The notes beneath the pieces were generated by a model, which made no database searches, was not told the DNA's origin, and saw only the letters and a list, made by a program, of their open reading frames with translations. The position numbers and the translations under genes are program-made. From contig JANTHG010000008.1 of NCBI GenBank assembly GCA_024762535.1, positions 1 to 38,432 of the forward strand: a DNA stretch of 38,432 nucleotides, read 5' to 3'. Position 1 is the stretch's first letter. Each line of letters begins with the position of its first letter. This document shows, one piece after another, positions 6,985 through 27,624 of the stretch. The DNA is from Calditrichaceae bacterium (GTDB lineage: Bacteria; Calditrichota; Calditrichia; Calditrichales; Calditrichaceae).

Positions 6985-7800
6985 ATGCGTCAGATCTTTA
7001 TTTTAACACTGTTTTTATTCATTTTAATGGCTTCAGGGCTACAGGCTGCTTTTGAACCCAAAGGCTTCGGCGCTTCCTACTTGGCACTGGGCGGCGCCGG
7101 ACGCGCGCGGGCGGCGGCGCCCTTCTCAGTTTTTCTTAATCCTGCAGCATTGCAGGCAGATACGCTATTGCAACTGAATTTGTACTACCGAAATTTTTAC
7201 GGGCTTAAAGAACTCAATCAACTTGCCTTCGAAGCACAAACCCGGATACAGGATATTCCTCTGTCTGTCGGGTTAAGCCGATACGGAAATGCGTTGTATG
7301 CCGAAAGCGAGCTACGCCTGGCCGCGGCCTACACATTATTTCAAGGGCTGTCTGCCGGTCTAAGCGTTAACGGCTATTTTGTATCACTTAGCGGTTACGG
7401 CAACAGCGCTACAGCCGGCCTTTCCGCCGCGTTACGATACCGGATTTTTTCTAATTTGGATATCGCCTTTGTAATCAATAATTTAAACGAACCGGTTTTG
7501 GGAGCAGCCAAAGAGCCTGTACCCATGCAAACAGCGCTGAGTGTTGCCCTGCGTCCGGAAGCGCATACGGAATTATTTATCGATTTGGTGCAGGAAGAAG
7601 GCGTCTCAGCGGACTGGCGGCTCGGCCTGGCCTTTCGCCCGGTGCAATGGCTGCAATTGCTGGCCGGTTTTAAAAACAGTGTGCATGCCGTAAGCGCCGG
7701 AATGAGCATTTTTAAGGGTACGTTACGCATGGATTATGGTTTGGAATATCATCTGGAATTGGGCGTAAGTAACGCCATGAGTGTGGGCTATGCGTTTTAA
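6985..7800 (+). CDS. PorV/UPF0164-like outer-membrane protein
   Basis: 271 residues. A signal peptide (about 1-21, ending LQAAFE) precedes GFGASYLALGGAGRARAAAPFSVFLNPAAL. This matches the family opening, in which a glycine/alanine-rich first strand is followed by an NPA motif. Alternating hydrophobic beta-strands follow, and the chain ends in aromatic Phe (SVGYAF), typical of barrels inserted by BamA. PorV/PorQ-type proteins act in type IX secretion or as FadL-like barrels. Nothing else for type IX secretion is seen here, so the role stays open. The start has no strong Shine-Dalgarno. The end overlaps the start of the next gene by 11 bases, which suggests coupling. Confidence 0.75.
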   Translation: MRQIFILTLFLFILMASGLQAAFEPKGFGASYLALGGAGRARAAAPFSVFLNPAALQADTLLQLNLYYRNFYGLKELNQLAFEAQTRIQDIPLSVGLSRYGNALYAESELRLAAAYTLFQGLSAGLSVNGYFVSLSGYGNSATAGLSAALRYRIFSNLDIAFVINNLNEPVLGAAKEPVPMQTALSVALRPEAHTELFIDLVQEEGVSADWRLGLAFRPVQWLQLLAGFKNSVHAVSAGMSIFKGTLRMDYGLEYHLELGVSNAMSVGYAF

Positions 7801-11157: not shown

Positions 11158-11340
11158 GCGGGATTAAACCATTCCTGATTAAAGTTTGTTCCAAACTGTT
11201 TTCAAACTAAAAAATTAAAGATTTAATCACTCATTTGCAACCAGAAGCAAAAAAGAGCGTTAACTGGTATAAAAGCGCTCCCCTTTGGGCAATCGCGCTT
11301 GTTATTAGCAGGGATTAATTTTATATTAAGCGACTTAATT

Positions 11341-13026
11341 ATGAAAAAAATACTTTTACATAGCACACTACTTTTAACTCTGGTTTGGGCTTCCGGATGC
11401 ATGCCTGCACTTAAACAACATCCTCATATGGATGAACACAAAGCAGAGCGGCTGAAAGCACGGGATTTTTACACTACGGGTATTTTTAAGCAGCAGCAGG
11501 GCCACTACAACGAAGCCCTAGTCGCTTTTTATCAGGCTTTACAGTACGATACCACTTCGGCTACTATCTACAATTCCATTGCCGAAAACCATATGAAACT
11601 CAGTCACTTTGAAAGCGCCAAAATCTACTTACAAAAATCCCTGCGTTTGAAGCCCGAGAATAGTGAGGCCCTGCAGCTATTGGCAGAATGCTATTTGCGC
11701 CTTGGGCAGGACGACCAGGCCATTGCCACATTTAAGCGCATCCTGAAAGCCAACCCCTACGATACAGACGCGCGGCAATATTTAATTTTACTCTATGAAA
11801 AAAATGACGACGCTCTGGGCATTGCAAAAGAAAACGAAGCTATGCTTCGCCTGTACGGCAAAAGTCCCGAAATCTTACAACGCCTGTCACAAATTTATAT
11901 ACGGCAAAAAATGTACAACAAAGCCTTGTATTATTTGAATGAACTTCAGGCCATAGACAGCACATCCGCTGAAACGCCTTATTTAATGGGTCAAATCAAA
12001 GATGTGCAGAATCAACCGGATTCCGCCGCTTTCTTCTACCGTAAAACCCTGGATCGGGAACCCACACATAAGGGCGCACTCGACCGCCTGACCCTCCGAT
12101 ACCGTTCTAAGCGGGACTGGAAGGCTATTATTGATTTGTACCGTCCTGTGCTCAAGGCCGATTCCACGAATCGCGCCGCGCGCATTATGAGCGCCGAGGC
12201 CTATTACTATCTAGAAACATACGACCAGGCACGCCGCCTTTTACTTCCGCTGGTACAGGGCGCCGAGGCAGACCCCGCCTTAATGGAACTGATGGGTCGC
12301 ATAGAACTGGAAAGCAAACATGCCGCTTCTGCCGCCTCTTATTTTCGGCGTATTCTGCAACACGCACACGATAACCGCATCGCCTGGATGTTCCTGGCCT
12401 TTTCCCTGAGCGATATGGACAGTTTACAGCAAGCGCAAAAAGTGTTCGAAGAGGCGCTTAACCACTTTCCGGAGGACGTCAATCTGTGGGCATTTTACGG
12501 CAATAACCTGCAGGAGCAGGAATTTTACGAACCGGCTATTTCCGCTTACCATAAAACGCTGGAACTGGATTCCACCAATCGTACGGCACTAGCCGGACTG
12601 CCCGTAATCTATGAAACTTTGAAAATGTACACCCAATGTGACAGTGTGTATGAACTGGCGATTAAACGTCTGCCCAATAACGCTTTGATTCTGAATAATT
12701 TTGGCTACAGCCTATCCGAGCGGAACATCCGTTTACAAGATGCGCTTAAAATGGCTCAAAAAGCCATTTCCATTCAGCCGGACAACGCTGCCTATCTCGA
12801 CACCATTGGCTGGATTTATTATAAGTTGGGTCAGTTTGAAAAAGCAGCACACTATATTCAAAAAGCTGTGGATTCCGGCGAAGCATCAGCCGTTGTACTG
12901 GAACATCTTGGTGACGTATACGCCGGTTTGGAACAAGTGGAGCAGGCCAGAACCTACTGGCAAAAGTCCATTGAGCTTGAACCGGATAATCCAACCTTAC
13001 TAAAAAAATTAGAAAAGATAAAATAA
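11341..13026 (+). CDS. TPR-repeat lipoprotein
   Basis: 561 residues from the ATG at 11341. A TTG-initiated extension from 11299 is possible but would bury the signal peptide. MKKILLHSTLLLTLVWASGC is a lipoprotein signal with lipobox Cys20. The rest is about 14 tetratricopeptide repeats, recognisable from A..F..AL..DP/N spacing such as YNEALVAFYQALQYDTTSA and FEKAAHYIQKAVDSG. It should sit at a membrane surface as a protein-protein scaffold. It heads a five-gene rightward operon; its TAA shares one base with the next ATG (TAATG), so translation is coupled to the DUF4292 lipoprotein gene. This TPR-plus-LolB-like pairing suggests envelope lipoprotein or glycan trafficking. Confidence 0.85.
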   Translation: MKKILLHSTLLLTLVWASGCMPALKQHPHMDEHKAERLKARDFYTTGIFKQQQGHYNEALVAFYQALQYDTTSATIYNSIAENHMKLSHFESAKIYLQKSLRLKPENSEALQLLAECYLRLGQDDQAIATFKRILKANPYDTDARQYLILLYEKNDDALGIAKENEAMLRLYGKSPEILQRLSQIYIRQKMYNKALYYLNELQAIDSTSAETPYLMGQIKDVQNQPDSAAFFYRKTLDREPTHKGALDRLTLRYRSKRDWKAIIDLYRPVLKADSTNRAARIMSAEAYYYLETYDQARRLLLPLVQGAEADPALMELMGRIELESKHAASAASYFRRILQHAHDNRIAWMFLAFSLSDMDSLQQAQKVFEEALNHFPEDVNLWAFYGNNLQEQEFYEPAISAYHKTLELDSTNRTALAGLPVIYETLKMYTQCDSVYELAIKRLPNNALILNNFGYSLSERNIRLQDALKMAQKAISIQPDNAAYLDTIGWIYYKLGQFEKAAHYIQKAVDSGEASAVVLEHLGDVYAGLEQVEQARTYWQKSIELEPDNPTLLKKLEKIK

Positions 13027-13802
13027 TGCGTATATTCATAATTCTGTTTTCACTTCTTATGATAACCGGCAGTTGTGTATTTCAAAAGAACCTGCGGAAA
13101 GACACCAACCAATTGACCTACCGCGAATTGCTGGCCGGCAACGAAAGCTGGCACCATTCGGTTAAAACCTTGCAGGGACAGGCGCGCATTACGTTAGACT
13201 CGCCACAGTATTCCGGTAATTTTAATGCCGATATCCTGGTAAACGGTCCGGATTCCCTGCTCATAACCATTACCGGCCCCATGGGTATCCGCGTGGGAAA
13301 AGTTTTTATTACGGCCAATCGCTTTGTATTTTACAATCAGGTAATGAATCAGTTCATCACTGGAACGCAAAAGGATTTTGAAGATACCAATTTTCTGCAG
13401 TTCCCTTTGGAAATCGGCCAGTTACGCAGTGTGTTTGCAGCACAGGACGCTTTCGAAATTTTAAAGGAAGAAAAATTTAAGCGCACCGAAGACGGCTTTT
13501 ATGTGGAAGCTTTGAACGGAGACCTCAATTTCCATATCTGGTTTGAACCGGAGTATCTGCATATCAAAAAAATTGAATATTATGATAATCGTCAACTGCT
13601 CTTTTACAAAGAATACGACCGTTTTAAAGTAACGGACGGTATTGTTTTCCCCCGATCTATCAATTTTGTCCGTCCGGAAGAAAAACAGGGACTAACTATC
13701 TTTTTTACAGAGTTGCATCTTAATCAACCCATTGATCCGGAACGATTTATCATTAATATTTCAGATAATGCCAAACAAATTGACCTTTCATTAGAACAGT
13801 AA
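13026..13802 (+). CDS. DUF4292 family lipoprotein (LolA/LolB-like fold)
   Basis: 258 residues with a short lipoprotein signal (MRIFIILFSLLMITGSC, Cys17). The body is almost all beta-strand: LQGQARITLDSPQYSGNFNADILVNGPDSLLITITGPMGIRVGKVFI followed by FYNQVMNQFITG. The typical late DGIVFPRSINF and FFTELHLNQPID strands are also present. This matches DUF4292, related in fold to lipoprotein carriers, and has no known enzyme residues. It is coupled by a one-base overlap to the upstream TPR lipoprotein gene. It is followed after 17 bases by a glycosyltransferase gene. A role in moving lipid or lipoprotein across the envelope is inferred from fold and context only. Confidence 0.8.
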   Translation: MRIFIILFSLLMITGSCVFQKNLRKDTNQLTYRELLAGNESWHHSVKTLQGQARITLDSPQYSGNFNADILVNGPDSLLITITGPMGIRVGKVFITANRFVFYNQVMNQFITGTQKDFEDTNFLQFPLEIGQLRSVFAAQDAFEILKEEKFKRTEDGFYVEALNGDLNFHIWFEPEYLHIKKIEYYDNRQLLFYKEYDRFKVTDGIVFPRSINFVRPEEKQGLTIFFTELHLNQPIDPERFIINISDNAKQIDLSLEQ

Positions 13803-13819
13803 CACAACTCAGGAATATT

Positions 13820-14743
13820 ATGGATGTTTCAATTGTAATCCCCATGTTAAACGAAGAAGAATCACTCCAGGAGCTGGTTGAACGTATTCATACTCAGGTT
13901 ACCGCGATGAATCTGAATCACGAAATCATCTTTGTGGATGACGGTAGCACAGACCATTCATTCGAAACGCTGCTTCGTTTAAAGGATACTTATCCGGCCA
14001 TAAAAGTTATCCGTTTCCGCCGGAATTTTGGTAAAAGCGCAGCCCTGTGTGTGGGCTTCGAAAAGGCCGTCGGCACTTATGTAATTACCATGGACGCCGA
14101 TTTACAGGACGACCCGGCTGAAATTCCCAATTTAATTGCCGAGTTGGAAAAGGGACTGGATTTGGTTTCCGGCTGGAAGAAGAAACGACACGACCCGATT
14201 AGTAAAACCGTGCCTTCCAAATTATTCAACTGGACTACCCAAAAGCTGACCGGTATCAAAATCCATGATTTCAATTGCGGTTTAAAAGCCTATCGCAGCG
14301 AAGTTATTAAATCCATTCCGGTTTACGGAGAACTGCATCGTTATTTACCCGTTCTGGCCCACTGGCAAGGTTTTAAAGTTGGTGAAATTGTGGTTAAACA
14401 CCACGAGCGGAAGTTTGGCGTTTCCAAATTCGGAGTGCGCCGGTTTTTCAGCGGATTTTTTGATTTGCTGACTGTGCTATTTATAACCCGCTACCGACAA
14501 AAGCCCCTGCATCTGTTTGGCTTTTTTGGTCTGGTATTTGGGTTTGCCGGTATTGGTATTTTAACCTACTTGTCTGTTTTATGGTTTCAGGGTATTGGTA
14601 TCGGCCACCGTCCGTTACTATTTTTGGGCGTTCTGCTTGTTATTGTGGGCGCACAATCCTTTTCCCTGGGCCTGATTGGCGAGATGATTACAAATACACG
14701 TACCCGAAGTAATAAATATACCATCCGCGAAATTATTGAATAA
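13820..14743 (+). CDS. polyprenyl-phosphate glycosyltransferase (GtrB/DPM1-like GT2)
   Basis: 307 residues. The GT-A motifs are SIVIPMLNEEESL (4-16), FVDDGSTD (38-45) and the metal-binding MDADLQDDP (91-99). Then comes FRRNFGKSAAL and two C-terminal membrane spans (about 231-255 and 265-292), ending ITNTRTRSNKYTIREIIE. This is the layout of GtrB/ArnC/DPM1 enzymes, which load a sugar onto a polyprenyl phosphate at the cytoplasmic face. The lipid-linked sugar is then used by integral glycosyltransferases outside. It lies 17 bases after the DUF4292 gene and 12 bases before another GT2 gene, in one operon. Confidence 0.88.
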   Translation: MDVSIVIPMLNEEESLQELVERIHTQVTAMNLNHEIIFVDDGSTDHSFETLLRLKDTYPAIKVIRFRRNFGKSAALCVGFEKAVGTYVITMDADLQDDPAEIPNLIAELEKGLDLVSGWKKKRHDPISKTVPSKLFNWTTQKLTGIKIHDFNCGLKAYRSEVIKSIPVYGELHRYLPVLAHWQGFKVGEIVVKHHERKFGVSKFGVRRFFSGFFDLLTVLFITRYRQKPLHLFGFFGLVFGFAGIGILTYLSVLWFQGIGIGHRPLLFLGVLLVIVGAQSFSLGLIGEMITNTRTRSNKYTIREIIE

Positions 14744-14755
14744 AGGCTGCTTTGT

Positions 14756-15793
14756 ATGACTGAACCCTACTCCCTCTATTCTGTTATTATCCCCTCTTTT
14801 AACCGGGCGGATGAAATGCAGGATTTGCTGCACTCGGTTCAGAATCTGGATTTCCCGCGGGAACGGTTTGAAATCGTAGTGGCTGACGACGGTTCCACGG
14901 ACAACACCGCAGAAATTGTAAACAGCTTTCAGGATGCTTCTTTTACCCTGCGTTATGTTTCACAGAAGAATCAGGGCCCGGGCGCGGCCCGCAATCTGGG
15001 AATGCAGGAGGCTAATGGGGATTTCTTTATTTTCATCGATTCCGATGTAACGCTTCCCTCATCCTGGCTTACCGAAATTGACCGCGCTCTGCAGGCGGAA
15101 CAGGCCGATGCCTTTGGCGGACCGGATACGTTTCTGCCGGACTTCCCGCCCCTGCTTAAGGCCATCAATTATTCTATGACCTCTTTTATTACGACCGGCG
15201 GTATGCGCGGTAAAAAAGGGAAGAAACTGGCTAAGTTTTATCCACGTTCCTTTAATATGGGGCTCAGCCGCAAACTATATGAAAAAATCGGCGGATTTGG
15301 TAATTTACGCCACGGACAGGATATTGAATATTCCAACCGCATCATCCGCAGCGGCGCGCAGGTTGTGTATGTAGATGCAGCTCCGGTTTATCACAAACGC
15401 CGCACCAATTTACGACGGTTTTACCGTCAGGTATTTAACTGGGGGATTGCCCGCGTTAACCTGTTCCACATCGACCCGAATATGTTTGAACCGTTGCACG
15501 CCATGCCGGCTCTGGCTACGTTTTTGGTTCTGCTTGTTACGGTTCTGGCGCCCTTTTCCTCTTTTTTTACCACTGTGTTCCTGGCCGGGCTGGTTCTGGC
15601 TCTACTGATTTTTATCGTTTCCATGCTCGATGCGGTGCGTATGTACAAAGAAATCACTCCCGCGCTTTATTTACCTCTGGTGATGCCGGCTCAAATTTTG
15701 GGTTACGGCCTGGGATTTATTTATAATTTTATCCGCCGTTCCGTTTTCGGCAAAGACGCCAAGGTGGGTTTTAAAAAGAATTATTACAAATAA
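14756..15793 (+). CDS. family 2 glycosyltransferase with C-terminal membrane spans
   Basis: 345 residues. SVIIPSFNRADEM (9-21), VVADDGSTD (41-49) and FIFIDSDVTLP (91-101, the DXD site) identify a GT-A fold. GGPDTFLP and the RHGQDIEYSNRIIRSG acceptor-site motif follow. Two hydrophobic spans at about 250-295 anchor it. It should extend a membrane-linked glycan; donor and acceptor are unknown. RBS-like AAAGG precedes the ATG. Gene spacing (12 bases before, 19 after) puts it in the TPR to YfhO operon. Confidence 0.85.
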   Translation: MTEPYSLYSVIIPSFNRADEMQDLLHSVQNLDFPRERFEIVVADDGSTDNTAEIVNSFQDASFTLRYVSQKNQGPGAARNLGMQEANGDFFIFIDSDVTLPSSWLTEIDRALQAEQADAFGGPDTFLPDFPPLLKAINYSMTSFITTGGMRGKKGKKLAKFYPRSFNMGLSRKLYEKIGGFGNLRHGQDIEYSNRIIRSGAQVVYVDAAPVYHKRRTNLRRFYRQVFNWGIARVNLFHIDPNMFEPLHAMPALATFLVLLVTVLAPFSSFFTTVFLAGLVLALLIFIVSMLDAVRMYKEITPALYLPLVMPAQILGYGLGFIYNFIRRSVFGKDAKVGFKKNYYK

Positions 15794-15812
15794 CCTGATT
15801 TAGGATACAATT

Positions 15813-18314
15813 ATGGCAAAGAATCCAAAGAAAAAAAGTAAACCGCAGTCTAAAGCACAAAGCGGTACAAACACCTTCTCTTTTTCTACTTCCGCACAAT
15901 CCTGGTTATTGCTCGGTGTGATGGCTCTCTTTCTAATCATTTTGCTTAAACCGCTGGTCATCGACCATTTGTCCCCCCAGGGCGTGGACGTGGTGGGTTC
16001 CCTTGGCAAAATGCACCAGCTCAACGAATTTCATAAAAAGACCGGCGAACAGGGCTTGTGGAATCCTAACATCTTTGCGGGCATGCCCGTGTATCACCGG
16101 CTCAGTCCGCAGGCTTATTCCTTAGACAACCTTATCGGCTTGTTCAGCCGTTGGTTCAGTAGTGTGTTTATGTATCTGCTGTTAGGCGCGGTAGGTTTTT
16201 TTGTGTTGATGCGCTATTTAAACATGCCGCCTTTGCTGGCTTTTTTCGGGGCCATACTTTTTGTGATGATGCCGCATTACAAATCGCTTTATCTCGAAGG
16301 GCATATGTCCAAACTACGCGCGCTTATGTACCTGCCCTGGATTTTCCTAACCTTCCGTTATTTTCTGGATAAACGCACTGTTTTGGCAGCCGCGTTGTTT
16401 GCTCTTTCTTTTGGATTGCAAATCCGGACCCAGCACTACCAAATTGTGTTTTACAGCGGACTGATGGTTTTTGCCTTAGGTGTATATCCGCTTCTTAAAG
16501 ATATTTTTGATAAAGAATACACCCGCTTTTCCAAAGCGGTGGGACTGCTGCTTGTTTCATTGATTCTGGCTCTGGCTATGGCTGCGCAGCCTTTGTTTTT
16601 GGCTAAAGAATATCTGCCCTACTCCAAACGCGGTAAAACCACTATTGAGGCCAATCAGCAAAAAACAAGCGCTAAAAATAACGGCGTTTCCATGAAATAC
16701 GCTACTCAGTGGTCCACCCATCCGGCGGAGCTTGCCACCTGGCTGGTGCCGCGCTTTTATGGCGGTATGTCCGGCGAAACCTACCAGGGAAGCCAGTACA
16801 AACAATTAAAAGGCCGCGCCATTCCGGGTTATTGGGGACACATGCCTTTTACCCAGAGTTATGAATATATGGGCGTGTTGTTGCTGCTTCTGGCTCTGCT
16901 TGGTTTTGTGGCTTTTCGCAAAGAAAAGATGATTTTGAGCCTGTTTCTGTTTGCCGTATTTCTTATTCTGCTCTCGTTCGGGCGGCATTTCGAATCTTTT
17001 TACAGCCTGTTCTACCATTACATGCCCTTCTTCAACAAATTCCGCACGCCTATGATGAGTGTGGCGGTTACCTATTTTATTTTCACGATTCTGGCCATGT
17101 ACGGATTCAAATATCTGGCTGAAATCCGTAACGAAGACAAAAGCTGGCAATCCTATAAAAGCATTTTGTACAGCCTGATTGGTCTTTTTGCGCTTGGCGT
17201 GATTTTCTGGCTGTACGGACAGAGCGCTTCGTTTGTTAAGACGGGCGGCGAACCGTACCACGGTCAAACCCTGCAAATGATTCGCAATATCCGTTCCGAA
17301 TTTTTTATGAACGACCTGACCCGCTATTTTATTCTAATACTGCTCGGCGGCGGTGTGTTAATCGCTTATTTAAAGAAAAAGATTCCCTTTGGCGTTCTTA
17401 CCTTGATTTTGGGCATCCTGGCTGTGGCGGACCTGGTACAAATTCAATCCCGTTCCCATAAAGATTATCAGAATATCAAACGCATCGAACGACAGTATTT
17501 CCGCCAAACGGCTACAGACCGTTTCCTGCTTTCGGACCACGAGACCTTTCGCATATTTCCGTTGGGTAAATTATTCGGCGATAACCGCTGGGCCTATTAC
17601 CACCAAACCATTGGCGGATACACGCCTATTAAAATGTACACGATTGAAGAATTGGTGGAGAAAAATATTTACAACGGCCCGGACGCCCAATTACCGATTA
17701 ACTGGAACGTTCTTAAAATTCTCGATGTAAAATATGTAGTCGCTCAACAACCGTTAAACAGCCCGCATCTGCAGCCCGCTTTCACGGATAAAGCCGGGCG
17801 GCTCTACACTTATCTTTTTAAAGAGCGCCTGCCGCGCGCCTTTTTTGTTTCCGGATTCGAAGTCATTCCGAATGAACACAAACGGTTGCAAACCATCAAC
17901 AGCGCCGCGTTTAATCCGGCAAAAACGGCCATCCTGGAAACAAAGCCCGCACAGCCGTTTTCAGCGCCGGATTCTGCTTTTGCCAAACTGAAGGCATTCA
18001 GCCCCAACCGAGTAGATTTTTCTGTGTACACCGATAAACAGGCATTGTTGGTACTATCCGAAGTCTACTATCCGCCGGGCTGGAAGATTTTTATGGACGA
18101 TACACAGGTAAAGGATGTGTACAAAACCGACCACGCCATTCAGTCGATTGTGGTGCCGGCCGGAGCGCACAAAGTGAGCCTGCGTTTTGAACCGGATTCC
18201 TATTTTAAAGACATCCGCATTGCCACGATTTCCAGCTGGCTTTTGTATCTTGTTATCATACTTTCTTTGGTGCAGATGTACAGGGAGAAGGGGAGAAAAA
18301 AAAGTAAGAAGTAA
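15813..18314 (+). CDS. YfhO-like large integral membrane protein
   Basis: 833 residues with about 12 membrane segments after a basic N-terminus (MAKNPKKKSKPQSK). A long periplasmic loop after the first span carries GLWNPNIFAGMPVYHR, where GT-C enzymes have acidic residues. The C-terminal 200 residues form a soluble beta-rich domain with YYPPGWKIFMDD, a hallmark of the YfhO family. Family members resemble GT-C polyprenyl-phosphate-sugar transferases. The preceding GtrB-like gene would supply exactly such a donor, so the two genes probably work in sequence. It is last in its operon, and no clear terminator follows. The soluble domain may bind acceptor. Confidence 0.85.
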   Translation: MAKNPKKKSKPQSKAQSGTNTFSFSTSAQSWLLLGVMALFLIILLKPLVIDHLSPQGVDVVGSLGKMHQLNEFHKKTGEQGLWNPNIFAGMPVYHRLSPQAYSLDNLIGLFSRWFSSVFMYLLLGAVGFFVLMRYLNMPPLLAFFGAILFVMMPHYKSLYLEGHMSKLRALMYLPWIFLTFRYFLDKRTVLAAALFALSFGLQIRTQHYQIVFYSGLMVFALGVYPLLKDIFDKEYTRFSKAVGLLLVSLILALAMAAQPLFLAKEYLPYSKRGKTTIEANQQKTSAKNNGVSMKYATQWSTHPAELATWLVPRFYGGMSGETYQGSQYKQLKGRAIPGYWGHMPFTQSYEYMGVLLLLLALLGFVAFRKEKMILSLFLFAVFLILLSFGRHFESFYSLFYHYMPFFNKFRTPMMSVAVTYFIFTILAMYGFKYLAEIRNEDKSWQSYKSILYSLIGLFALGVIFWLYGQSASFVKTGGEPYHGQTLQMIRNIRSEFFMNDLTRYFILILLGGGVLIAYLKKKIPFGVLTLILGILAVADLVQIQSRSHKDYQNIKRIERQYFRQTATDRFLLSDHETFRIFPLGKLFGDNRWAYYHQTIGGYTPIKMYTIEELVEKNIYNGPDAQLPINWNVLKILDVKYVVAQQPLNSPHLQPAFTDKAGRLYTYLFKERLPRAFFVSGFEVIPNEHKRLQTINSAAFNPAKTAILETKPAQPFSAPDSAFAKLKAFSPNRVDFSVYTDKQALLVLSEVYYPPGWKIFMDDTQVKDVYKTDHAIQSIVVPAGAHKVSLRFEPDSYFKDIRIATISSWLLYLVIILSLVQMYREKGRKKSKK

Positions 18315-18637
18315 GAAGTAGAAAGGGGGAAGTTAGTAAGTTGTTGGTTAGCGTCAGGAATACGGCAATCGCGAAGAACCAATGAATAAACCATAAACAA
18401 TATTCAACGCTTGCCCTCCTACCCCCTAAAAATGACCGTACATTCAGCATGAATGACTTTAAAGCTTAAAATATTTGAGTTTTAAATCCCCAATGAATCT
18501 TTATTTTCTCTTCTATTTATTTTTGCTCACAAACAGCTAATATTTTTGAAGCAATTGACGAGTTTGTGTATATTGGCGACGAAATAAATTAAACCGAGGC
18601 ACTCACTTTAATTTTTTATTTAACCGGAGGATAGATT
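18315..18637 (+). other. intergenic region upstream of the cytochrome gene
   Basis: 323 bp without a credible gene. The left end has a short direct repeat (AAGTAAGAAGTAAGAAGTAG). The right half holds a promoter candidate (18546-18574) and a strong ribosome binding site, GGAGG at 18626-18630, seven bases before the cytochrome ATG. No terminator for the upstream operon is obvious. Confidence 0.5.
18546..18574 (+). promoter_or_regulatory. candidate sigma-70 promoter of the cytochrome gene
   Basis: TTGAAG (18546-18551) and TATATT (18569-18574) are separated by exactly 17 bases and match the -35 and -10 consensus at 4 of 6 and 5 of 6 positions. The predicted leader is about 55-60 bases. Consensus-based only. 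Confidence 0.4.
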
Positions 18638-21199
18638 ATGAAGACCCGCTTTACCGCATGGGTCGGTTTGCTGGTTTTGCTTATCCCAGCATTTCAGGCC
18701 TTTGCGGATGAACATCCCAAAATTCCGCTACTCGATAAGAACGGCGACAATGTTATTGAAATGGCCAAAGCCCAGGGACAAAAACTGGTCATTAACGGCG
18801 TTACCTACTTCAAAGGCAATCCGTACAGTCCCGAACAAACCTGCGGCTCCTGCCACGATTACGAGGCAATTACTTCCGCTTACCACTTTCAGCTTGGCGC
18901 TACGGATATGGGAGACGACTGGGGTAAGAAACATCCTCAGTTCCACTATTCCCATCTTTTATCCGCCGGTCAGTACGGCTCCTGGTGACCGCCTTCTTAC
19001 CGCCAGTTGGCGCAAAAGAAGAATAAATCTCAATTAACTTTTGATATTGGCACCGCAGAAGAAGTAGCAACCTGCGCATCTTGTCACCCCGGCGGTGGCC
19101 CTTATGAATTTGACCGTAACGGGAATCGTCTGGATTCCGTAAACCCTGATGACGCACCTGCTTTAGACGGTGATTATTATACCTATTCATCCGATGAAAC
19201 CAAAGACGGCACTGCAGCCAAACCTCATAAATTTGACTGGCGCAAGTCCGGTTCCTTAGAAGCCGATTGTTTTACCTGTCATTTAGACCCGGACACCAAA
19301 CGGCTTACGGATGCCAACGGTGTTAAGCCTGTAACCTACAATCCCCGTATCCGCATTTTCGCCAAACGGGTCAACGGAAAAGCCGAAGCCATCTCTATGG
19401 GCATCTATCCCGGTGCCGGTTGGGAATCAGCCTTTACGTATTCCGATCCGCTTTCCCGCAGTAAAACAAAATTTGAAGCCGGTAAATTCTACAGCGATCT
19501 GGACAACCCAATGGCCGATTCGCGTAATTACCTGCGTCAGCCCTATGTGGAAGGCGAAGGAACACCGTTTACCGATTTACAGGCTAAACGTAAATTTTTG
19601 GGCAATTTCTTTACCGAAGCACCTTCCGGTGCTTTAATGGGTTGGGATAATAATCAGGATGGCTATCCTGTGACCTATGTAAAGCTTGAGAAGAATAAAG
19701 ATGAATTCGATGCCCTTGTTTACTACGAAGTGAGCGAATTCGACGAAGACGATGAAATCACCATTCCCGTGCTCAGCTCCAAAGATACGGAGAGCGGAGA
19801 CAACAAATGGACCCGGGTGTGCGGACAATGCCATGTGGGTGTAAAAGACCCAATCAACGGCAGCCTTCAGGTACGTACCTGGGGATTAGGTATGAAGGCG
19901 GATATCGTAAAACGGGCCGAAGTGTGGAATTTAGACCCGCAAACAGAAAAAGATCCCGGTTACGACGTTCACGCGGCCGCCGGTCTGGAATGTACCAGTT
20001 GCCATGCCAAAGGGAAACCGGATGGCGTGGATTGGGAAGACTATGTGACGGATGCAGATCATAATTTCCCCAAAGGCACGGACAGCGGCAACCATGTACG
20101 GGATGATCTGGATAATCAGCCGGGCCCAAAGAATTGCACGTATTGCCATATCCAGGAAGGCAGCGGCCCCGACCCTGCGGAAGCGCACGAAAACGTATTC
20201 GGCAGCGCTGCGCAATCTCATATAAAAGGTATTGCCTGCGAAACCTGCCATGTGCCGCAGGTTCGCTACTGGACCTTCCGCACCTTTGATTATTCCTTAG
20301 GCTTTACTTACAATTATGATAACCGTCATTTCCCAGGCCCCAACGGTAAAATGATGGATGTGATGCTAGCACCTTACTACGGCCCGATTCCGGGTTACGG
20401 CATGGGTAATGTGAGCTGGCTGGTTGGCCACAGAGATAGCGAAGATTTTTCTACTGATTTGCTGGCCCCGGTCGCCTATATGGAACCGGATAAAAGTAAT
20501 GACATGTACGGCCAGATGTACCAGCACATGACCGGCCAAAAAGGATTTGAATGGTCGCCACCTATGATTTATACCAAAAACAAACAGGGCGAACAGATTA
20601 CATTGGCTAATCCCATCACTATTCAAACCTGGTTTGACAAGACCCTTAAGAAAGTGCTCTATCCCAGAGAAATCAATGCGGCGATAAAAGGACATTTCTT
20701 CACACAAAAAGGGCAGCGTTACGCCTTGCTCAGTACCGGTGACAAAATCTATGATAAAACCGGTTATATGGGCCATCCGGATATGAAGCCGGAAATCAGC
20801 ACGCTGGACGATGTACAGAAAATGCGTAAAGCTCTGATTGAAATTCTGAAAAAAGAGGGTGAACAGAATCCGGATCCGGTGCTGTTCATTGGCGCGCATT
20901 ATTTCAAAATATCGCACGGCGTTCTGCCTGCGGATCAGGCGCTGGGCGCTAATGGCACCTGTACCGCCTGTCACGGTAAAAACGGACGCATTGAAGACCG
21001 GACGCTTGCCTTTACACCAAACAGCATCCAGGGCTTTGAAGAGGGCATCCAAAAAGGATTGATTATGATTGATCCGGAGGTCAACTATATCAAACCTGTT
21101 GATCTGGATGGTGACGGTACTGCCGATATCCTGGGCGCTTCTCAAAAAGAAGTACTGGAAAAAATGAAAGAAGAACTGCACGAAACAGAAAAGAAATAA
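18638..21199 (+). CDS. octahaem c-type cytochrome with probable selenocysteine at in-frame UGA (18986-18988)
   Basis: Read as one gene this is 853 residues. A signal peptide (1 to about 23, ending QAFADE) is followed by eight CXXCH haem-binding motifs at about 69-73, 146-150, 211-215, 395-399, 452-456, 500-504, 534-538 and 775-779. Codon 117 is UGA, in GQYGSW-U-PPSYRQLAQ. The frame continues without shift to TAA at 21199. The downstream part has no signal peptide and no Shine-Dalgarno before its first possible start (TTG, 19007), so it could not be exported for haem attachment alone. A SECIS-like hairpin follows the UGA. DKNGDN (about 33-38) and DLDGDGTAD (about 822-830) look like calcium-binding loops. 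It is probably a periplasmic or extracellular electron-transfer protein or reductase; the substrate is unknown. It is a single-gene unit with its own promoter and terminator. A nonsense mutation is the main alternative. Confidence 0.85.
18986..19021 (+). promoter_or_regulatory. SECIS-like element with its UGA codon
   Basis: UGA (18986-18988) is followed by outer stem CTTCTT (18993-18998) pairing with AAGAAG (19016-19021). Inner stem CGCC (19001-19004) pairs with GGCG (19009-19012), with a 2x3 internal loop between the stems. The apical loop is AGUU (19005-19008). It starts 16 bases after the UGA and has G in its second position. Bacterial SECIS elements are known to lie inside the coding region just after the UGA, with an apical loop roughly 16-37 bases away and a G in the first two loop bases. 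The match is by eye, not from a covariance model. Confidence 0.7.
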
Positions 21200-21233: not shown

Positions 21234-21266
21234 AAAAAAGCCTCACATTTCTTGTGAGGCTTTTTT
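21234..21266. terminator. bidirectional intrinsic terminator
   Basis: AAAAAA, then GCCTCACA (21240-21247), a 5-base TTTCT loop, TGTGAGGC (21253-21260) and TTTTTT. The 8-bp stem is perfect and flanked by A- and T-runs, so it works on both strands. It lies 35 bases after the cytochrome stop and about 107 bases after the end of the leftward RND pump gene, serving both convergent units. Confidence 0.9.
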
Positions 21267-21372: not shown

Positions 21373-24300
21373 CTACTTTTTCTTCCGATCTTCAAACACA
21401 TAGTAAAAAGCCGGAATAACAAACAGTGTTAAAAAGGTGGAAACCAGTAACCCGCCAATACTCACCACACCAAGAGGCTGACGCATTTCCACACCGGCAG
21501 AACCGACCCCGATCGCCAGAGGCAACATACCCAGAATAATAGCAATGGTGGACATGATAATCGGTTTCAGTTTGGTGGGACAAGCTTCAATAAGCGCATC
21601 CTTCACACCCATGCCCCGTTCGCGCACCAGTTGATTGGTATAATCCAACATCAAAATAGCGTTATTGACCACAATACCGATAAGCATAATAATTGCCATC
21701 ATAGAGGTAATGGCAAAGGAAATATGCGTGTAATACAGAGATGCCAGCACACCGATAATGGCCAGAGGCACCGTTAATAAAATAAAAATCGGTTGTATAA
21801 AACTCTCCAGAATGGCGGCAAGCAGCATGTAGGTCAGCAGCATGGCCAGCACAAACGCGAAGGACATATCGCTGATCATCTCCGTCATCATTTCGGCCAT
21901 ACCGGCCCATTTTATTTTATAACCTGCGGGGAATTCTATATCTTTCAAACGTGTTTCGATTTCTTTGGTTACATTCCCCATGGGTACGCCGGGCGCATTG
22001 GAACCGGTAAACTGAACCGCCACATATTTATCACGGTGAATAATCTTGGAATAACTTTTAGTGAAATGAATATCCGCCAATTGAGCCAGACGATACATCA
22101 CTCCCCTGCGTGACGGAATGGAAATACGGCCAATTTTATCCGGTGTATCTACGGAAGCATCGTCCATGGTTATGGTGATATCGTACTCTTCGCCCTTTTC
22201 CAAATATTTAGACGCTGTAATACCCGCGAGCGAGGCGCGCACGGTTAATGCCAACTCCTGAGCTGTGATTCCGGTTTCGGCCAGCATAGTCCGTTTAGGA
22301 ATGATTGAGATTTCCGGTTTCCCTTCACGCGAGCTTTGGTCCAGGTTAATCAGCCCCGGCACATCATGTATTTTTTCCATAATCTCTGTTTTAAGTCGGT
22401 TCACCACTTTTAGATCCTGACCCAGCAAAAAGAATTGCAAAGGCGCACCGCCGCCCATTCCGGATTTGTAATCCACTGTTATCAAACGCGCATTGGGAAT
22501 ATCTGAAAAGTCCTTCACAAAATGGCTGATATAATATTTTATTTTATGCTTACGCTGATCCACAGGGACCAGGTTCACATCCATCATAGCCATATTGGTA
22601 CCGGTATTTACATTACTGGTTTTGCCCAGCTCGGTTACTATATTGATGATGCCCGGATACTCTTTAATTTTTTCTTCCATTGCTTTAAGCACTTTACCGG
22701 TTTCGTGGATATTATATTCCTTAGGTAATTCCACGGTAATTTGCATCATGCCGTTATCGGACTGGGGCATCATGTCAAATCCGATCCGCGGGCCGTAGAA
22801 AATAACTGAAAGGATAAACAGGATAAAGGATACCGCAATAATTATGATACTCATGGTTTTATTGCGCAGGGATTTGGTTAGAATTTTACGATAAAAAGTA
22901 TCCCATTTCAGATAAAAGGCGTCCATTTTCTTAGCTAACCGTCCCGGGCCGCCCTCTTCTTTAATCATCAGAGACGCCAGCATCGGCGTAAGAGTAAACG
23001 AAAACAAAAGCGAAAACAAGGTGGAAAAGGAAGCTGCCAGCGCCAGTTCTTTCATGAACATTCCTACCATGGAAGACATGTTGGCAATGGGCAAAAACAC
23101 TACTACATTGGTCAGCGTGGCTGCCAAAACAGCTACCGCAATTTCCGTGGTTCCCTTTAAAGCCGCCTCTTTGGGGCCGTTCCCCATGTTTTTATGCCGG
23201 AAAATATTTTCCAGCACCACTACCGAATTGGAAACCAGCACACCCACAGAAACGGAAATCCCCATCAATGACATTACATTCATACTCATATCAAAAAACT
23301 GAAAGAGCAGAAAAGTGGAAATGATGGAAGCCGGCATGGACAACGCCACAATTATCGTAGAACGGATATTGAATAAAAACAGAAATAATACCAGCGATGT
23401 AAAGATCACACCAAGAATAATATTGCTCATGGTATCTTCTACAGTGCTGCGTGTAAAATTCGCCTTATCGCTGACAATGGATAAATTCATCCCCTTGGGC
23501 AGTTCCTTACGGATTTCCGGCAACACAGCGCGTACCGCATCTGAAACCACAATTTCATTACCGTCCGAACTTTTAACTATAGCCATACGCACCGCGTTGG
23601 AATCGCTCATTTGCGTGGCCGCGTCAAAATAAACAGTACGTTTGATGATATCTTTTCCGCTGTCTTTCACGTTGGCTATCTGGCTTAGTTTTTTATTGCC
23701 AAATACGGTAGGAATTTGCAGGTTGCGTAGTTCATCCACACTTTTGAATTTACCCTGCACCCGCGCCGAATATTCCTGATTGCCGATTTTAAATGAACCA
23801 CCGGGTAAATCGATATTTTGCGAACCAAGAATGCCCAGTAGTTGCGGCATGGAAATAAAATTTTTATAGACCACGCGATTCTTTAATTCTACCCGTATTT
23901 CTCGTTCCTGACCGCCGCTAATTTGTACTTCGGCTACACCGGGAATTTGTGCAAAACGATCTTTAAGCTTGCCATCCGCTAATTGGTACAAAACGCGTGG
24001 ATCAATATTATCGCCGCTTAGAATGATGTCCATAATCGGTTTGGCGTTTAAATCGATTTTCTGCACAATGGGCTTTTTGGCGTCTGTGGGCAACTGATTG
24101 ATAATCTGATCAACCTTGTCCTTCACTTCCTGATTGGCCACATCCACATCTTTGGTCAGTTTAAACTCCAGTACCGAAATGGCCACGCCGTCTAAGTTGT
24201 AAGATTCAATTCGTTTAATTTCACTGATAGTGGAAACCGCATCTTCCACTTTTTTGGTGATAAGCGTTTCATTTTCTTTGGGTCCCGCGCCGGGATATAT

Positions 24301-24447
24301 GGTTGTTACGGTTACATACGGTATTTCGACCTGCGGCATATTGTTCAGGTTCAGAGTAAAATACGCCAGACCGCCGAACAGAATAAACACAGAGAGTAAA
24401 ACGGTGGTAAGCACAGGGCGGTCCACCGAAAGTTTTGCCAGAAACAT
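21373..24447 (-). CDS. RND-family efflux pump inner-membrane protein (HAE1-like)
   Basis: 1024 residues, the usual RND length, with 12 membrane spans in two halves and two large periplasmic loops. It starts MFLAKLSVDRPVLTTVLLSV and has the porter-domain IYPGAGPKENE motif. In TM4, where AcrB has Asp407-Asp408, the sequence reads GVLVSNSVVVLEN, with Ser406-Asn407. In TM10 the AcrB Lys940 position falls in GIVVNNAILMLDY (Asn928-Asn929). The usual proton-relay residues are therefore missing, so coupling may differ. Family members export drugs, dyes or lipids through a tripartite channel. AGGAGG precedes the ATG. It is the last gene of a tetR-tolC-MFP-RND operon, with 10 bases to the membrane fusion gene. 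Confidence 0.9.
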   Translation of the reverse strand: MFLAKLSVDRPVLTTVLLSVFILFGGLAYFTLNLNNMPQVEIPYVTVTTIYPGAGPKENETLITKKVEDAVSTISEIKRIESYNLDGVAISVLEFKLTKDVDVANQEVKDKVDQIINQLPTDAKKPIVQKIDLNAKPIMDIILSGDNIDPRVLYQLADGKLKDRFAQIPGVAEVQISGGQEREIRVELKNRVVYKNFISMPQLLGILGSQNIDLPGGSFKIGNQEYSARVQGKFKSVDELRNLQIPTVFGNKKLSQIANVKDSGKDIIKRTVYFDAATQMSDSNAVRMAIVKSSDGNEIVVSDAVRAVLPEIRKELPKGMNLSIVSDKANFTRSTVEDTMSNIILGVIFTSLVLFLFLFNIRSTIIVALSMPASIISTFLLFQFFDMSMNVMSLMGISVSVGVLVSNSVVVLENIFRHKNMGNGPKEAALKGTTEIAVAVLAATLTNVVVFLPIANMSSMVGMFMKELALAASFSTLFSLLFSFTLTPMLASLMIKEEGGPGRLAKKMDAFYLKWDTFYRKILTKSLRNKTMSIIIIAVSFILFILSVIFYGPRIGFDMMPQSDNGMMQITVELPKEYNIHETGKVLKAMEEKIKEYPGIINIVTELGKTSNVNTGTNMAMMDVNLVPVDQRKHKIKYYISHFVKDFSDIPNARLITVDYKSGMGGGAPLQFFLLGQDLKVVNRLKTEIMEKIHDVPGLINLDQSSREGKPEISIIPKRTMLAETGITAQELALTVRASLAGITASKYLEKGEEYDITITMDDASVDTPDKIGRISIPSRRGVMYRLAQLADIHFTKSYSKIIHRDKYVAVQFTGSNAPGVPMGNVTKEIETRLKDIEFPAGYKIKWAGMAEMMTEMISDMSFAFVLAMLLTYMLLAAILESFIQPIFILLTVPLAIIGVLASLYYTHISFAITSMMAIIMLIGIVVNNAILMLDYTNQLVRERGMGVKDALIEACPTKLKPIIMSTIAIILGMLPLAIGVGSAGVEMRQPLGVVSIGGLLVSTFLTLFVIPAFYYVFEDRKKK

Positions 24448-24457
24448 GGAACCTCCT

Positions 24458-25507
24458 CTATTTTACCACTTTAATTTTTACACCGTCTGTTAAACGGGCA
24501 TTGCCCTGTATAATCAGCGGATCACCAGCCTGCAATCCCTTATCAATTTCGTACCAAACACCGGATACATGGGCAATATGCACAGGTTGCCGAACCGCTT
24601 TATTATCTCTGGCCAAAAAGACAAACGATGTACCGTCTGCATCGTTTTTTACCAGATTGCGCGTAATGGCAATGGTTTTGGGATTTTGGTACAAAATCAC
24701 TTTAACTTCGGCCGTCAGTCCGGGCAAAATATCGCCATTTGGATTATCAAAAATGATATCTGCGTAAAAGGCCTGTTTCATGGGATCCACACTCATGGAT
24801 AGGTCGTATACTTTACCATGAAATATTTTTTTACCCACTTTCGCTTCCACGGCCATGCCTTTTTTCATTTCCATACGCTCTTCGTCCGAAAGCCAGATAC
24901 GCAGCTTCATTTTATTCAGTTGCGCAACCGTGAACAACGGCGTTTTGGCTTTAACGTTATCGCCTTCGTGCACCATCAACTCGGTTACCACACCATTGTA
25001 GGGCGCATCCAAATGCAGCATATCATTCATGATTTCGAAATTACGTTTATCCACAAGATATTTAGTAGTAATGCCGTCAAACTGCGCCTGGGCAATTTCT
25101 CCTTTATCATGCAGCGCCTTCATTCGTTCATACGTCTTTTTGGAATTTTCATATGCCGCTTTGGCTTGCTGAAATTGGGAAGCAGGAGAATCTTTAGGGA
25201 ATTCAATAACCACCTGATTCTCTTTTACCCGATCACCGGGTTTGGCATGAATTGTTTCAACCCGTCCGCCGATCATGGCGCCAATAATGGTTTCCTTGTA
25301 TCCCTTAAACTGGCCGAAAAAGGTTAAGTCCTTTTCAAAAGACCGGGGCTGAACTTTCTGAACCACCACCGGATAACCTTCCGCTTTCTGGATATCTTCC
25401 ATACTTTCCGATTTTACTTCGTCCTGCCCCGAACATCCCGATAAAAGCAAAGCCGTGGCAGTCAGGCTTAAAATAACTACGGAATATATATATGTTTTAA
25501 TACGCAT
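24458..25507 (-). CDS. RND efflux periplasmic adaptor (membrane fusion lipoprotein)
   Basis: 349 residues. A lipoprotein signal ends at Cys25 (ALLLSGC), so the adaptor is tethered to the inner membrane. A beta-barrel/lipoyl half (IGGRVETIHAKPGDRVKENQVV) is followed by a helical hairpin (about 110-150) and the second lipoyl half (LDAPYNGVVTELMVHEGDNV). The beta-barrel and membrane-proximal domains follow, ending DGVKIKVVK. It bridges the RND pump and the TolC-type channel. It lies 11 bases after the tolC-like gene and 10 before the pump gene; a GGAG site precedes its ATG. Confidence 0.92.
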   Translation of the reverse strand: MRIKTYIYSVVILSLTATALLLSGCSGQDEVKSESMEDIQKAEGYPVVVQKVQPRSFEKDLTFFGQFKGYKETIIGAMIGGRVETIHAKPGDRVKENQVVIEFPKDSPASQFQQAKAAYENSKKTYERMKALHDKGEIAQAQFDGITTKYLVDKRNFEIMNDMLHLDAPYNGVVTELMVHEGDNVKAKTPLFTVAQLNKMKLRIWLSDEERMEMKKGMAVEAKVGKKIFHGKVYDLSMSVDPMKQAFYADIIFDNPNGDILPGLTAEVKVILYQNPKTIAITRNLVKNDADGTSFVFLARDNKAVRQPVHIAHVSGVWYEIDKGLQAGDPLIIQGNARLTDGVKIKVVK

Positions 25508-25518
25508 CTTACACTCCT

Positions 25519-26949
25519 CTATTTATTCAAAGATTCTTCAACAAATTTTAAATAACGGTCATCAACCCGCCCGACCAAATTATCCAGTTCGGCTTTGGCA
25601 ACCAGGTAATCATGAACCGCATTGGTGTAGTTGGTTTTAGCCTGACCCAAAGCTACATCCGCATCTTTTAATTCCAGCTCACTTCCCAGACCCTGTTCAT
25701 AACGATCTCGGGCTATCTTATATGCTCTTTGAGCCAAATCGATATTACGCTGCATCAAAGTGATGATACGTTTTACCCGCTTTAAATCATTTAAACGGGA
25801 TTTAATGCCACTCTGCGTGGCGTCCGACAACATACTGATTTGCTGATCGGTCTGCCGGCCGGCAATTTCATCTTGTTCCACTTTTTGAGCCGTACGCCCT
25901 CCCTGAAACAGATTGATGGAAAAACTCAGCCCCACCAGGGATGACGAATAATTCTGAAAATCCCAGCCTTCTCCCGAACCGGCATAGGTGTAGTTGCCAA
26001 ATGCCGCCAGAGTGGGCCAATATCCGCCGCGGTCAATTGCTGCCAGTTCATCGTCCAGTTGCCGTTTAATTTTTAACGTGGAAAGGGTTAAATTCGATTG
26101 AAGCGCCTGATGAATAAGTTCTTCTTCGGTAGGTAAGGGTTCGTCCGTGTAGGTCATTTCGCCCATAACCTGAATGGGTTTATTCTGATCGATATTAAGC
26201 AGAATTTTTAACCCGTTGGTGGCGCTCTGTACAGCATTTTCCAACTGTAAGATAACCGGACGAATATTTTCCACCTGCACTTCGGCCTGCATTTGATCGT
26301 ATTCGGAAATCAGACCCTGAGCATGCATGGATTGAATGGTTTTTAAATGCTCGTTGGCATTGGCAAAACGGCTTTTGGTAATGGCAAGAATATCTCTGGC
26401 CAGTAAAACACCGTAATAGGCTTTTTTTACATCTACGGTTGTTTTGGAAACCGCACTTTTTAATTTTTCCTTGGAAAGATTCAAATAAATCTCTGAAGCG
26501 CCGATACCACGCAGCACAGCAGAATTGAATAAAATTTGCGTAACCTGAGCCTGCGCCTGATAGTTATTCTCCTGCGCAAATGTCTGCAATTTGGTGCCCA
26601 TAGGCATAAATTTGGAAGCATCGTACGGAATCACGCCTTCGTTAAACAACACACCATAAGTGGCATTGGTGAGCATGGCCTGAAAATCCGGAAAAGCCAT
26701 TTTGGGCTTTTGCAGAAAATGGGAAAAATTAGCGCTCACATCCAGGGAAGGAAGGGCATAGCCAAAGGCTTCGCTTACAGCCGCATCCGCCCGGTCCACT
26801 TCTAATTTGGCCATGTGTACTTCCCTGTTATTCTTTAAAGCAAGGGAAATAGCTTCGTCCAAAGTTAAACTTTGTGGTTGCTCCTGTGCCAGGGACATAC
26901 TTAGCAACAGCAGAACCATAAAATAAATCCCTTTGTTTTGTTTGATCAT
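25519..26949 (-). CDS. TolC-family outer-membrane efflux protein
   Basis: 476 residues with a signal peptide (to about residue 21, SLAQE). Two structural repeats of the OEP family are visible: SLTLDEAISLALKNNREVHMAKLEVDRADA near the start, and a second half with LSFSINLFQGGRTAQKVEQ and YEQGLGSELELKDADVALGQAKTNYTNAVHDYLVAKAELDNLVG. It forms the trimeric outer-membrane channel of the tripartite pump. AGGAG precedes the ATG at good spacing. The 66 bases to the tetR stop hold no obvious terminator, so one transcript from the tetR promoter is likely. Confidence 0.92.
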   Translation of the reverse strand: MIKQNKGIYFMVLLLLSMSLAQEQPQSLTLDEAISLALKNNREVHMAKLEVDRADAAVSEAFGYALPSLDVSANFSHFLQKPKMAFPDFQAMLTNATYGVLFNEGVIPYDASKFMPMGTKLQTFAQENNYQAQAQVTQILFNSAVLRGIGASEIYLNLSKEKLKSAVSKTTVDVKKAYYGVLLARDILAITKSRFANANEHLKTIQSMHAQGLISEYDQMQAEVQVENIRPVILQLENAVQSATNGLKILLNIDQNKPIQVMGEMTYTDEPLPTEEELIHQALQSNLTLSTLKIKRQLDDELAAIDRGGYWPTLAAFGNYTYAGSGEGWDFQNYSSSLVGLSFSINLFQGGRTAQKVEQDEIAGRQTDQQISMLSDATQSGIKSRLNDLKRVKRIITLMQRNIDLAQRAYKIARDRYEQGLGSELELKDADVALGQAKTNYTNAVHDYLVAKAELDNLVGRVDDRYLKFVEESLNK

Positions 26950-27015
26950 AAAAAGCTCCTGTATATTTTTAATTCTGTTCTCTCGGTTACGTGTTTCTTC
27001 TGTTTTTGTTTCCCA

Positions 27016-27624
27016 TTACCTATGCACACGAATTCCATCCGTGATATAGCCAATGAGACGGATTATTTCTTCGGCTATGGGCTCAAAATGAACCTCCGAT
27101 ACAAAGGTTACATCAGAGTTCAAATAATGATAATTAAAAATAGCCGGGATGAGCCGGGCTATATCGCTGGATAGCGCACTACTGTCGTGCGCTTTAAATT
27201 CTTTATTGGCGATCCCTTCATCCAAAATAACCTTAATGCTATCCTGATGATGCTTACTGAATTCCGGGAATGTGCTGCAAATTACTTTATTGATCTCCAT
27301 AAATGAAGACAGTTTTATGGCATAATCCGTTGTATTCGATTTTATGAAATTAATGAAACAGGAAACAAACTTTTCCAGTTTCTCTGTTGCCGGAATGGTT
27401 TGTGCCAGAATCTCTTTTTCCCTGTCCGTGTGGGTGGCTATGGTATCCCGGATAATTTCCAAGAACAAAGCTTCTTTGCTTTCGAAATAATAGTAGAGCG
27501 AATTTTTTTTCATACCCAGCACTGCGGCAATATCTTCGAGTGTGGTTTTATAGTAGCCATACGCGGCGAACGAGCGAATACCGGCCTGTTTAATTTCTTC
27601 CCGTTTTTGATCAAACTTTTTCAT
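27016..27624 (-). CDS. TetR-family transcriptional regulator
   Basis: 202 residues. The N-terminal helix-turn-helix (about 27-48, TTLEDIAAVLGMKKNSLYYYF followed by ESKEALF) is a standard TetR DNA-binding domain. The C-terminal ligand-binding half is diverged, with a polar, alpha-helical pattern. As the first gene of the efflux operon it is most likely the local repressor, relieved by a pump substrate. A perfect inverted repeat that overlaps the -10 element and lies just upstream of its ATG supports autoregulation. The Shine-Dalgarno is weak (GAAAG). Confidence 0.9.
   Translation of the reverse strand: MKKFDQKREEIKQAGIRSFAAYGYYKTTLEDIAAVLGMKKNSLYYYFESKEALFLEIIRDTIATHTDREKEILAQTIPATEKLEKFVSCFINFIKSNTTDYAIKLSSFMEINKVICSTFPEFSKHHQDSIKVILDEGIANKEFKAHDSSALSSDIARLIPAIFNYHYLNSDVTFVSEVHFEPIAEEIIRLIGYITDGIRVHR

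Follow-up and report, generated by a model that had tools for sequence, protein, structure and literature searches.

A likely selenocysteine-containing octahaem cytochrome c with a predicted OTR-like fold, encoded across five phylum-level groups of bacteria

The stretch of DNA analysed here (the window, 38,432 nucleotides) comprises all of contig C8 in a draft genome from Calditrichota; the draft totals 3.27 Mb over 317 contigs and is 89% complete. On its forward strand lies a gene for a predicted exported octahaem c-type cytochrome whose reading frame contains a single UGA. The features of the locus, numbered along the window, are as follows.

18626..18630, + strand: ribosome binding site GGAGG, 7 nt ahead of the start codon (ATG at 18638; read directly)
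18638..21199, + strand: gene for the predicted exported octahaem cytochrome c, 853 residues, with probable selenocysteine (Sec) at 117 and a TAA stop; the UGA position is kept in all orthologues
18638..18706, + strand: hydrophobic signal peptide MKTRFTAWVGLLVLLIPAFQAFA, cleavage inferred after A23 (read from the translation only, without a predictor)
18842..18856, + strand: haem motif 1, CGSCH, residues 69-73, invariant in the family (translation and alignment)
18986..18988, + strand: in-frame UGA, probable Sec117, in the context GSW-U-PPSYRQLA; UGA in 47 of 47 genes of the Sec group, TGC (Cys) in L116/L141
~18993-19021, + strand: longer imperfect stem around the SECIS hairpin, predicted in the window gene
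19001..19012, + strand: SECIS apical hairpin CGCC-AGUU-GGCG, loop AGUU at 19005-19008, 16 nt past the UGA
19073..19087, + strand: haem motif 2, CASCH, residues 146-150
19268..19282, + strand: haem motif 3, CFTCH, residues 211-215
19820..19834, + strand: haem motif 4, CGQCH, residues 395-399
19910..19912, + strand: Lys425 (ADIVK), invariant in 41 of 41 sequences and aligned with Lys153 (GDAVK) of octahaem tetrathionate reductase (OTR) in 11 of 12 alignments
19991..20005, + strand: haem motif 5, CTSCH, residues 452-456
20135..20149, + strand: haem motif 6, CTYCH, residues 500-504
20237..20251, + strand: haem motif 7, CETCH, residues 534-538
20960..20974, + strand: haem motif 8, CTACH, residues 775-779
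21197-21199, + strand: TAA stop of the octahaem gene
21234..21266, + strand: probable intrinsic terminator AAAAAGCCTCACA..TGTGAGGCTTTTT (read directly; absent from the list of the consensus scan)

The UGA splits a stretch of 116 codons, which holds one CXXCH motif, from a stretch of 736 codons holding CXXCH motifs 2 to 8. Downstream of the UGA, no usable start with a ribosome-binding site was found; the mechanical open reading frame begins at TTG 19007, and a start there would give a cytoplasmic seven-haem cytochrome. Because c-type haems are attached after export, a working protein requires that the UGA be read through. The probable intrinsic terminator that follows the gene suggests that it is monocistronic.

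The octahaem gene stands alone among unrelated genes, and no conserved partner was seen in the family neighbourhoods compared; nor were conserved sulfur-metabolism genes found beside family members in those neighbourhoods. Upstream on the plus strand (11299-18314), a TPR protein and a LolB1-like lipoprotein (DUF4292) are encoded together with a pair of family-2 glycosyltransferases and a large membrane protein related to PTPS, apparently in one operon. Downstream on the minus strand (21373-27624) an RND permease, an adaptor, a TolC-type protein, and a TetR regulator make up an ordinary efflux operon.

The UGA is conserved. A contig scan and a search of the phylum gave five Calditrichota orthologues, 69-85% identical to the window protein, each with exactly one in-frame stop, which is TGA at the same codon in the context W-U-P-P-S-Y-R-Q-L-A. 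A profile search over 385 genomes, followed by searches in the phyla of the distant matches, raised the number of distinct homologous genes to 47, from five phylum-level groups; every one carries UGA at this position, usually as W-U-P-P. Six of these genes are from Calditrichota, 36 from 17 genomes of Desulfurobacteriaceae, three from a high-GC group (G214, G552, and G553), one from G273, and one from G210. Genomes of the vent group often carry two or three copies. Two of the 47 genes belong to G049, a single contig of 1,541,968 bp with ~35% GC, which is the finished isolate genome of Desulfurobacterium thermolithotrophum. G553 is taken to be probably Anaeromyxobacter sp. Fw109-5, and all three high-GC genomes are likely to be Anaeromyxobacter. 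Conservation of the in-frame UGA is far beyond chance, and on comparative sequence evidence the family is old and spread over the five groups.

Under a published rule for bacterial SECIS elements (PMC13188914), the apical loop should be small, have G as its first or second base, and lie 16-37 nt after the UGA. This rule is met throughout by the loop AGUU, which lies 16 nt after the UGA in 43 genes and 22 nt after it in four. The ten-base core of the hairpin, GCCAGTTGGC (GCC-AGUU-GGC), is identical in all 47 genes, and the pairs outside it show compensatory changes: the closing pair is C-G in 44 genes, A-U in two, and A.C in one, and the next outer pair is C-G in 29, G-C in three, U-A in two, and unpaired in 13. 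Codon usage at the hairpin is also restricted. Among the six Calditrichota genes, 62 columns are six-fold degenerate and invariant in amino acid; only R122 and L124 keep a single codon throughout, and nowhere in the gene but at RQLA are four successive codons identical. The hairpin TTG is the only TTG among 70 (G214) or 64 (G552) Leu codons in genomes of 75% GC and one of two among 68 in a third such genome, and in G197 the hairpin CGC is one of two CGC among 55 Arg codons. The close homologue in G519, which has Cys at the Sec place, writes RQLA as CGC CAG CTC GCG and has lost the hairpin. Comparison of these sequences shows that the constraint at RQLA acts on the RNA and tracks Sec. A search of the window with Rfam gave no SECIS family match and nothing at the gathering score; most of the weak matches fell at the 3' terminator region.

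Part of the machinery for Sec insertion is encoded in the same genome. It contains selA (494 bits) and a tRNA-Sec (70.6 bits) to which ARAGORN assigns the anticodon tca (UCA); selB was not found in this 89% complete draft. Among family relatives, selB is above the cut-off in all 14 genomes. SelA is present in 17 of the 18 genomes tested, with only the G036 draft having none over the cut-off. We consider it very likely that the UGA at codon 117 is decoded as Sec by the SelB, tRNA-Sec(UCA), and SECIS route, on comparative sequence evidence and with no peptide or selenium measurement.

Most of what a sequence-only reading of this locus had proposed is borne out by these comparisons. Its joining of two same-frame stretches across the UGA at 18986-18988 into one exported octahaem protein held, both in the sequence and in the 47 conserved UGA genes, as did its description of the second stretch (736 residues, seven CXXCH motifs, no ribosome binding site) on direct reading, and its SECIS-like hairpin at the right distance fits the published rule and the invariant core. 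Its placement of Sec at residue 117 is supported by the UGA of the homologues and the Cys of one close homologue. Of the sel genes that it had suggested looking for, selA and tRNA-Sec are in the genome and selB was seen only in the relatives. Other residues do occur at the Sec position in side branches, Ser in more distant paralogues and Asn or Asp in an outgroup.

The Cys homologue (G519, L116/L141) is in the same phylum group as G214 and has TGC at the Sec place, in N-W-C-S-P-A-P-L-Y-R-Q-L-A; plain BLASTP agrees. In a group of paralogues (L103-L108, L035/L037) the Sec position is occupied by Ser, written with various Ser codons, and a distant outgroup has Asn or Asp. The Ser and the Asn or Asp forms indicate that the Sec residue is replaceable in side branches, and the Ser paralogues imply that some relatives do without selenium or a thiol at this position. 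A quick tree built by maximum likelihood nests both the Ser group and the Cys row inside the Sec rows, with the minimum of four state changes. This nesting suggests that Sec was ancestral for the group, but the tree was only a quick one and long branches meet in it. The Ser paralogues share the motif YNRxSVPHM, and several genomes hold both Ser and Sec forms.

The fold of the protein was approached by modelling and alignment. A first structure model, from 13 sequences, was poor (pLDDT 46.6) and was set aside for a second, which was built from 41 sequences without haems and reached pLDDT 73 and pTM 0.79. Foldseek against the PDB returned one significant match for it, 1SP3 (OTR; E 1.8e-5), with low TM-scores of 0.19/0.35. 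When the 1SP3 sequence was included in multiple alignments, haem motifs 1-8 of the family paired with motifs 1-8 of OTR in 12 of 12, and the invariant Lys425 (A-D-I-V-K) aligned with OTR Lys153 (G-D-A-V-K) in all but one. In OTR, Lys153 ligates the active-site haem and Cys64 sits near that haem. Sec117 and Cys64 (N-N-F-C) both lie between haems 1 and 2, past a conserved His; they are directly aligned in three of 12 alignments, and Sec117 otherwise faces gaps or other residues. Six distal-type His residues (H83, H445, H475, H517, H528, and H760) do not vary among the Sec and Cys rows, and H26 is 92% conserved. In searches by sequence alone, phmmer of the window protein against the PDB found nothing, profile searches reached only NrfA-like haem cores, and profile-profile comparison with the OTR sequence aligned only the part around haems 5-7. 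An OTR-like fold with a Lys-haem site is likely, as predicted by the model and alignments, with ligation by Lys425 inferred. We regard the gene as encoding a Sec-containing, exported octahaem c-type cytochrome with an OTR-like fold, with a probability of about 0.8; the substrate is outside this figure.

The protein has features in common with several known systems. OTR of Shewanella oneidensis (PDB 1SP3, TIGR04315) shares the order of its eight CXXCH motifs with the Sec family and likewise has a Lys 10-30 residues past haem 4, a similar pattern of distal His residues (DVH before haem 5, H..H before haem 7, and SH/NH before haem 8), and a Cys between haems 1 and 2, where the Sec family has Sec. 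However, OTR has 443 residues compared with about 850-1500 in the Sec family, and it lacks the conserved W-U-P-P-x-Y-R-Q-L-A motif that holds the Sec. Against TIGR04315 the window protein scores 30.8 bits and the other members tested 19-49, far short of the curated OTR cut-off of 375. A locus in G084 (L071, 4517-8629) contains a true OTR (7202-8626, TIGR04315 558 bits), which directly adjoins a non-Sec (Asn) relative fused to a thiosulfate-reductase-type cytochrome b. The pentahaem and octahaem nitrite reductases of the NrfA type give a weak profile match over haems 4-6 only (~135 positions, E 2e-6), which places them in the same haem-core superfamily, but the Sec family lacks the CXXCK catalytic motif of NrfA. 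This motif is established for most NrfA.

Multihaem cytochromes with Sec are already known. A review of selenoproteomes (PMC13188914) lists a Sec-containing entry under TIGR04315, WP_331457571.1, as 'GenBank annotated'. This entry is likewise a Sec-containing octahaem c-type cytochrome of the OTR superfamily; it is listed under a model for which our family scores far below the cut-off. The second case is ExtKL of Geobacter (GSU2937-GSU2936, NF040886), also a multihaem c-type cytochrome of metal-reducing bacteria with predicted Sec, which lies in a multi-gene porin-cytochrome cluster, whereas the Calditrichota gene is apparently monocistronic. The window protein does not match NF040886 at E 0.01. 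The UGA-containing multihaem cytochromes of Desulfuromonadia that the sequence-only reading had mentioned fit ExtKL but are a different family. NCBIfam (June 2026) has no curated model for the Sec octahaem family, no other curated selenoprotein family matched, and text searches of the literature for Sec in this family gave only the review table and ExtKL. As judged by curated models, the family is distinct from ExtKL and from the TIGR04315 entry, and it is apparently unnamed, leaving aside any Sec annotation in single GenBank records.

A mechanism can be proposed in outline. The UGA at codon 117 would be read via the SECIS 16 nt downstream to give one protein of 853 residues that carries a signal peptide and all eight CXXCH motifs. 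This protein would adopt an OTR-like fold, in which Lys425 would serve as distal ligand to the active-site haem, the part played by Lys153 in OTR, and Sec117 would take the place of Cys64 beside the Lys-ligated haem. Electrons from the quinol pool would pass along the other seven haems to the Lys-haem/Sec site, where a periplasmic or extracellular substrate would be reduced. Entry from quinol is inferred from the G210 member, which is fused to an FdhI-type (formate-dehydrogenase-type) cytochrome b (134 bits). An inorganic compound containing an S-S bond, namely tetrathionate, thiosulfate, or polysulfide, may be the likeliest substrate, and the selenol could attack or hold its sulfur; sulfur is favoured because of the likeness to OTR and a sulfur-reducing host. 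With no activity data, we hold this substrate assignment tentatively and would not be surprised to see it fail.

The position of Sec is also uncertain. That Sec117 sits at the Lys-ligated haem active site of an OTR-like respiratory reductase is an inference as likely to be wrong as right. The sequence-only reading had suggested a haem or metal ligand or an active-site selenol; neither is shown, and comparison with OTR favours an active-site role. The Ser paralogues, the low TM-scores, and the alignment with Cys64 in only a quarter of cases count against the reading proposed here. A bolder reading, in which these proteins form a widespread, undescribed family of respiratory selenoenzymes with Sec directly at a multihaem active site, next to or on the Lys-ligated haem of an OTR-like fold, falls somewhat short of an even chance in our estimate.

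Explanations of the UGA that do without Sec are all but excluded. A pseudogene mutation or a sequencing error could be suspected because the window comes from a draft metagenome-assembled genome in 317 contigs. Against this, the UGA is shared by 47 genes and recurs in the finished D. thermolithotrophum genome, which argues that it is not an assembly error and disposes of the sequencing error that the sequence-only reading had left as a way to be refuted; moreover, the protein is conserved over its full length past the UGA and the SECIS is invariant. The idea that the UGA stands for Trp or some other standard amino acid, whether by an altered genetic code or by plain readthrough, draws some support from the use of TGA as a stop by just one of 22 window genes, the other 21 ending in TAA or TAG, so that TGA is a rare stop in the window. 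However, the other window genes contain 141 TGG codons, a tRNA-Sec with anticodon UCA and SelA are present, and both the SECIS and the Cys homologue are particular to Sec. The shared UGA and this use of TGG led us to reject a pseudogene, a sequencing error, and recoding to Trp.

The rivals to the proposed function are less easily dismissed. Sec117 could be a distal (axial) haem ligand that tunes or gates an electron-transfer cytochrome rather than a catalytic selenol, and the protein could then be a conduit for extracellular electron transfer, to metals or to other cells, rather than a reductase. We consider this unlikely. In its favour, eight haems are served by only six invariant non-motif His residues and K425, which leaves one haem without an invariant distal ligand, and there are no conserved enzyme partners. 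Some members have many-haem cytochromes as neighbours (28 CXXCH-type motifs in L067, 12 in L064), and the GGGGGGCS...RRKK tail of Desulfurobacteriaceae members suggests surface anchoring. On the other hand, H26 could provide the eighth ligand in most members, Ser, which is a poor haem ligand, replaces Sec in one paralogue group, and the alignment of the invariant Lys with OTR speaks for a catalytic haem. If the protein is a reductase as proposed, its substrate may possibly be not a sulfur compound but an oxyanion of selenium, tellurium, or arsenic, in detoxification or respiration. The operon of ExtKL, the other known Sec cytochrome, has been implicated in selenite and tellurite reduction (PMC13188914 among the sources), and the G210 member (L068, 944-12409) is near a Thioredoxin_3 protein, an ArsR-type regulator, an SBF/ACR3-type carrier, and an ArsP permease. 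However, arsenic-type neighbours occur in one genome only, and the solitary setting of the Calditrichota gene offers no such context.

Few selenoproteins are known with Sec at a haem centre. The hosts of this family are thermophilic autotrophs of vents, members of Calditrichota, and the high-GC group, which is probably Anaeromyxobacter, and the wide occurrence of the genes, often in two or three copies in the vent group, makes a role in anaerobic respiration of the hosts probable. As the sequence-only reading had anticipated, normal annotation would split or drop each gene. The relatives provide a natural Sec/Cys/Ser series for one cytochrome fold, and D. thermolithotrophum is a cultured organism in which the function of Sec at a haem centre could be tested.

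Two further observations concern the Desulfurobacteriaceae. At the C-terminus of several members (L065, L066, L067, and L070), a GGGGCS-type stretch rich in Gly leads into a hydrophobic segment and then RRKK, an arrangement with a conserved Cys that resembles a C-terminal sorting or anchoring signal. In D. thermolithotrophum (L067, 3972-7049), a protein of 1025 residues with 28 CXXCH-type motifs is clustered with a cytochrome b561 and an NHL-repeat protein, and this cluster ends next to a Sec cytochrome gene, which is on the opposite strand.
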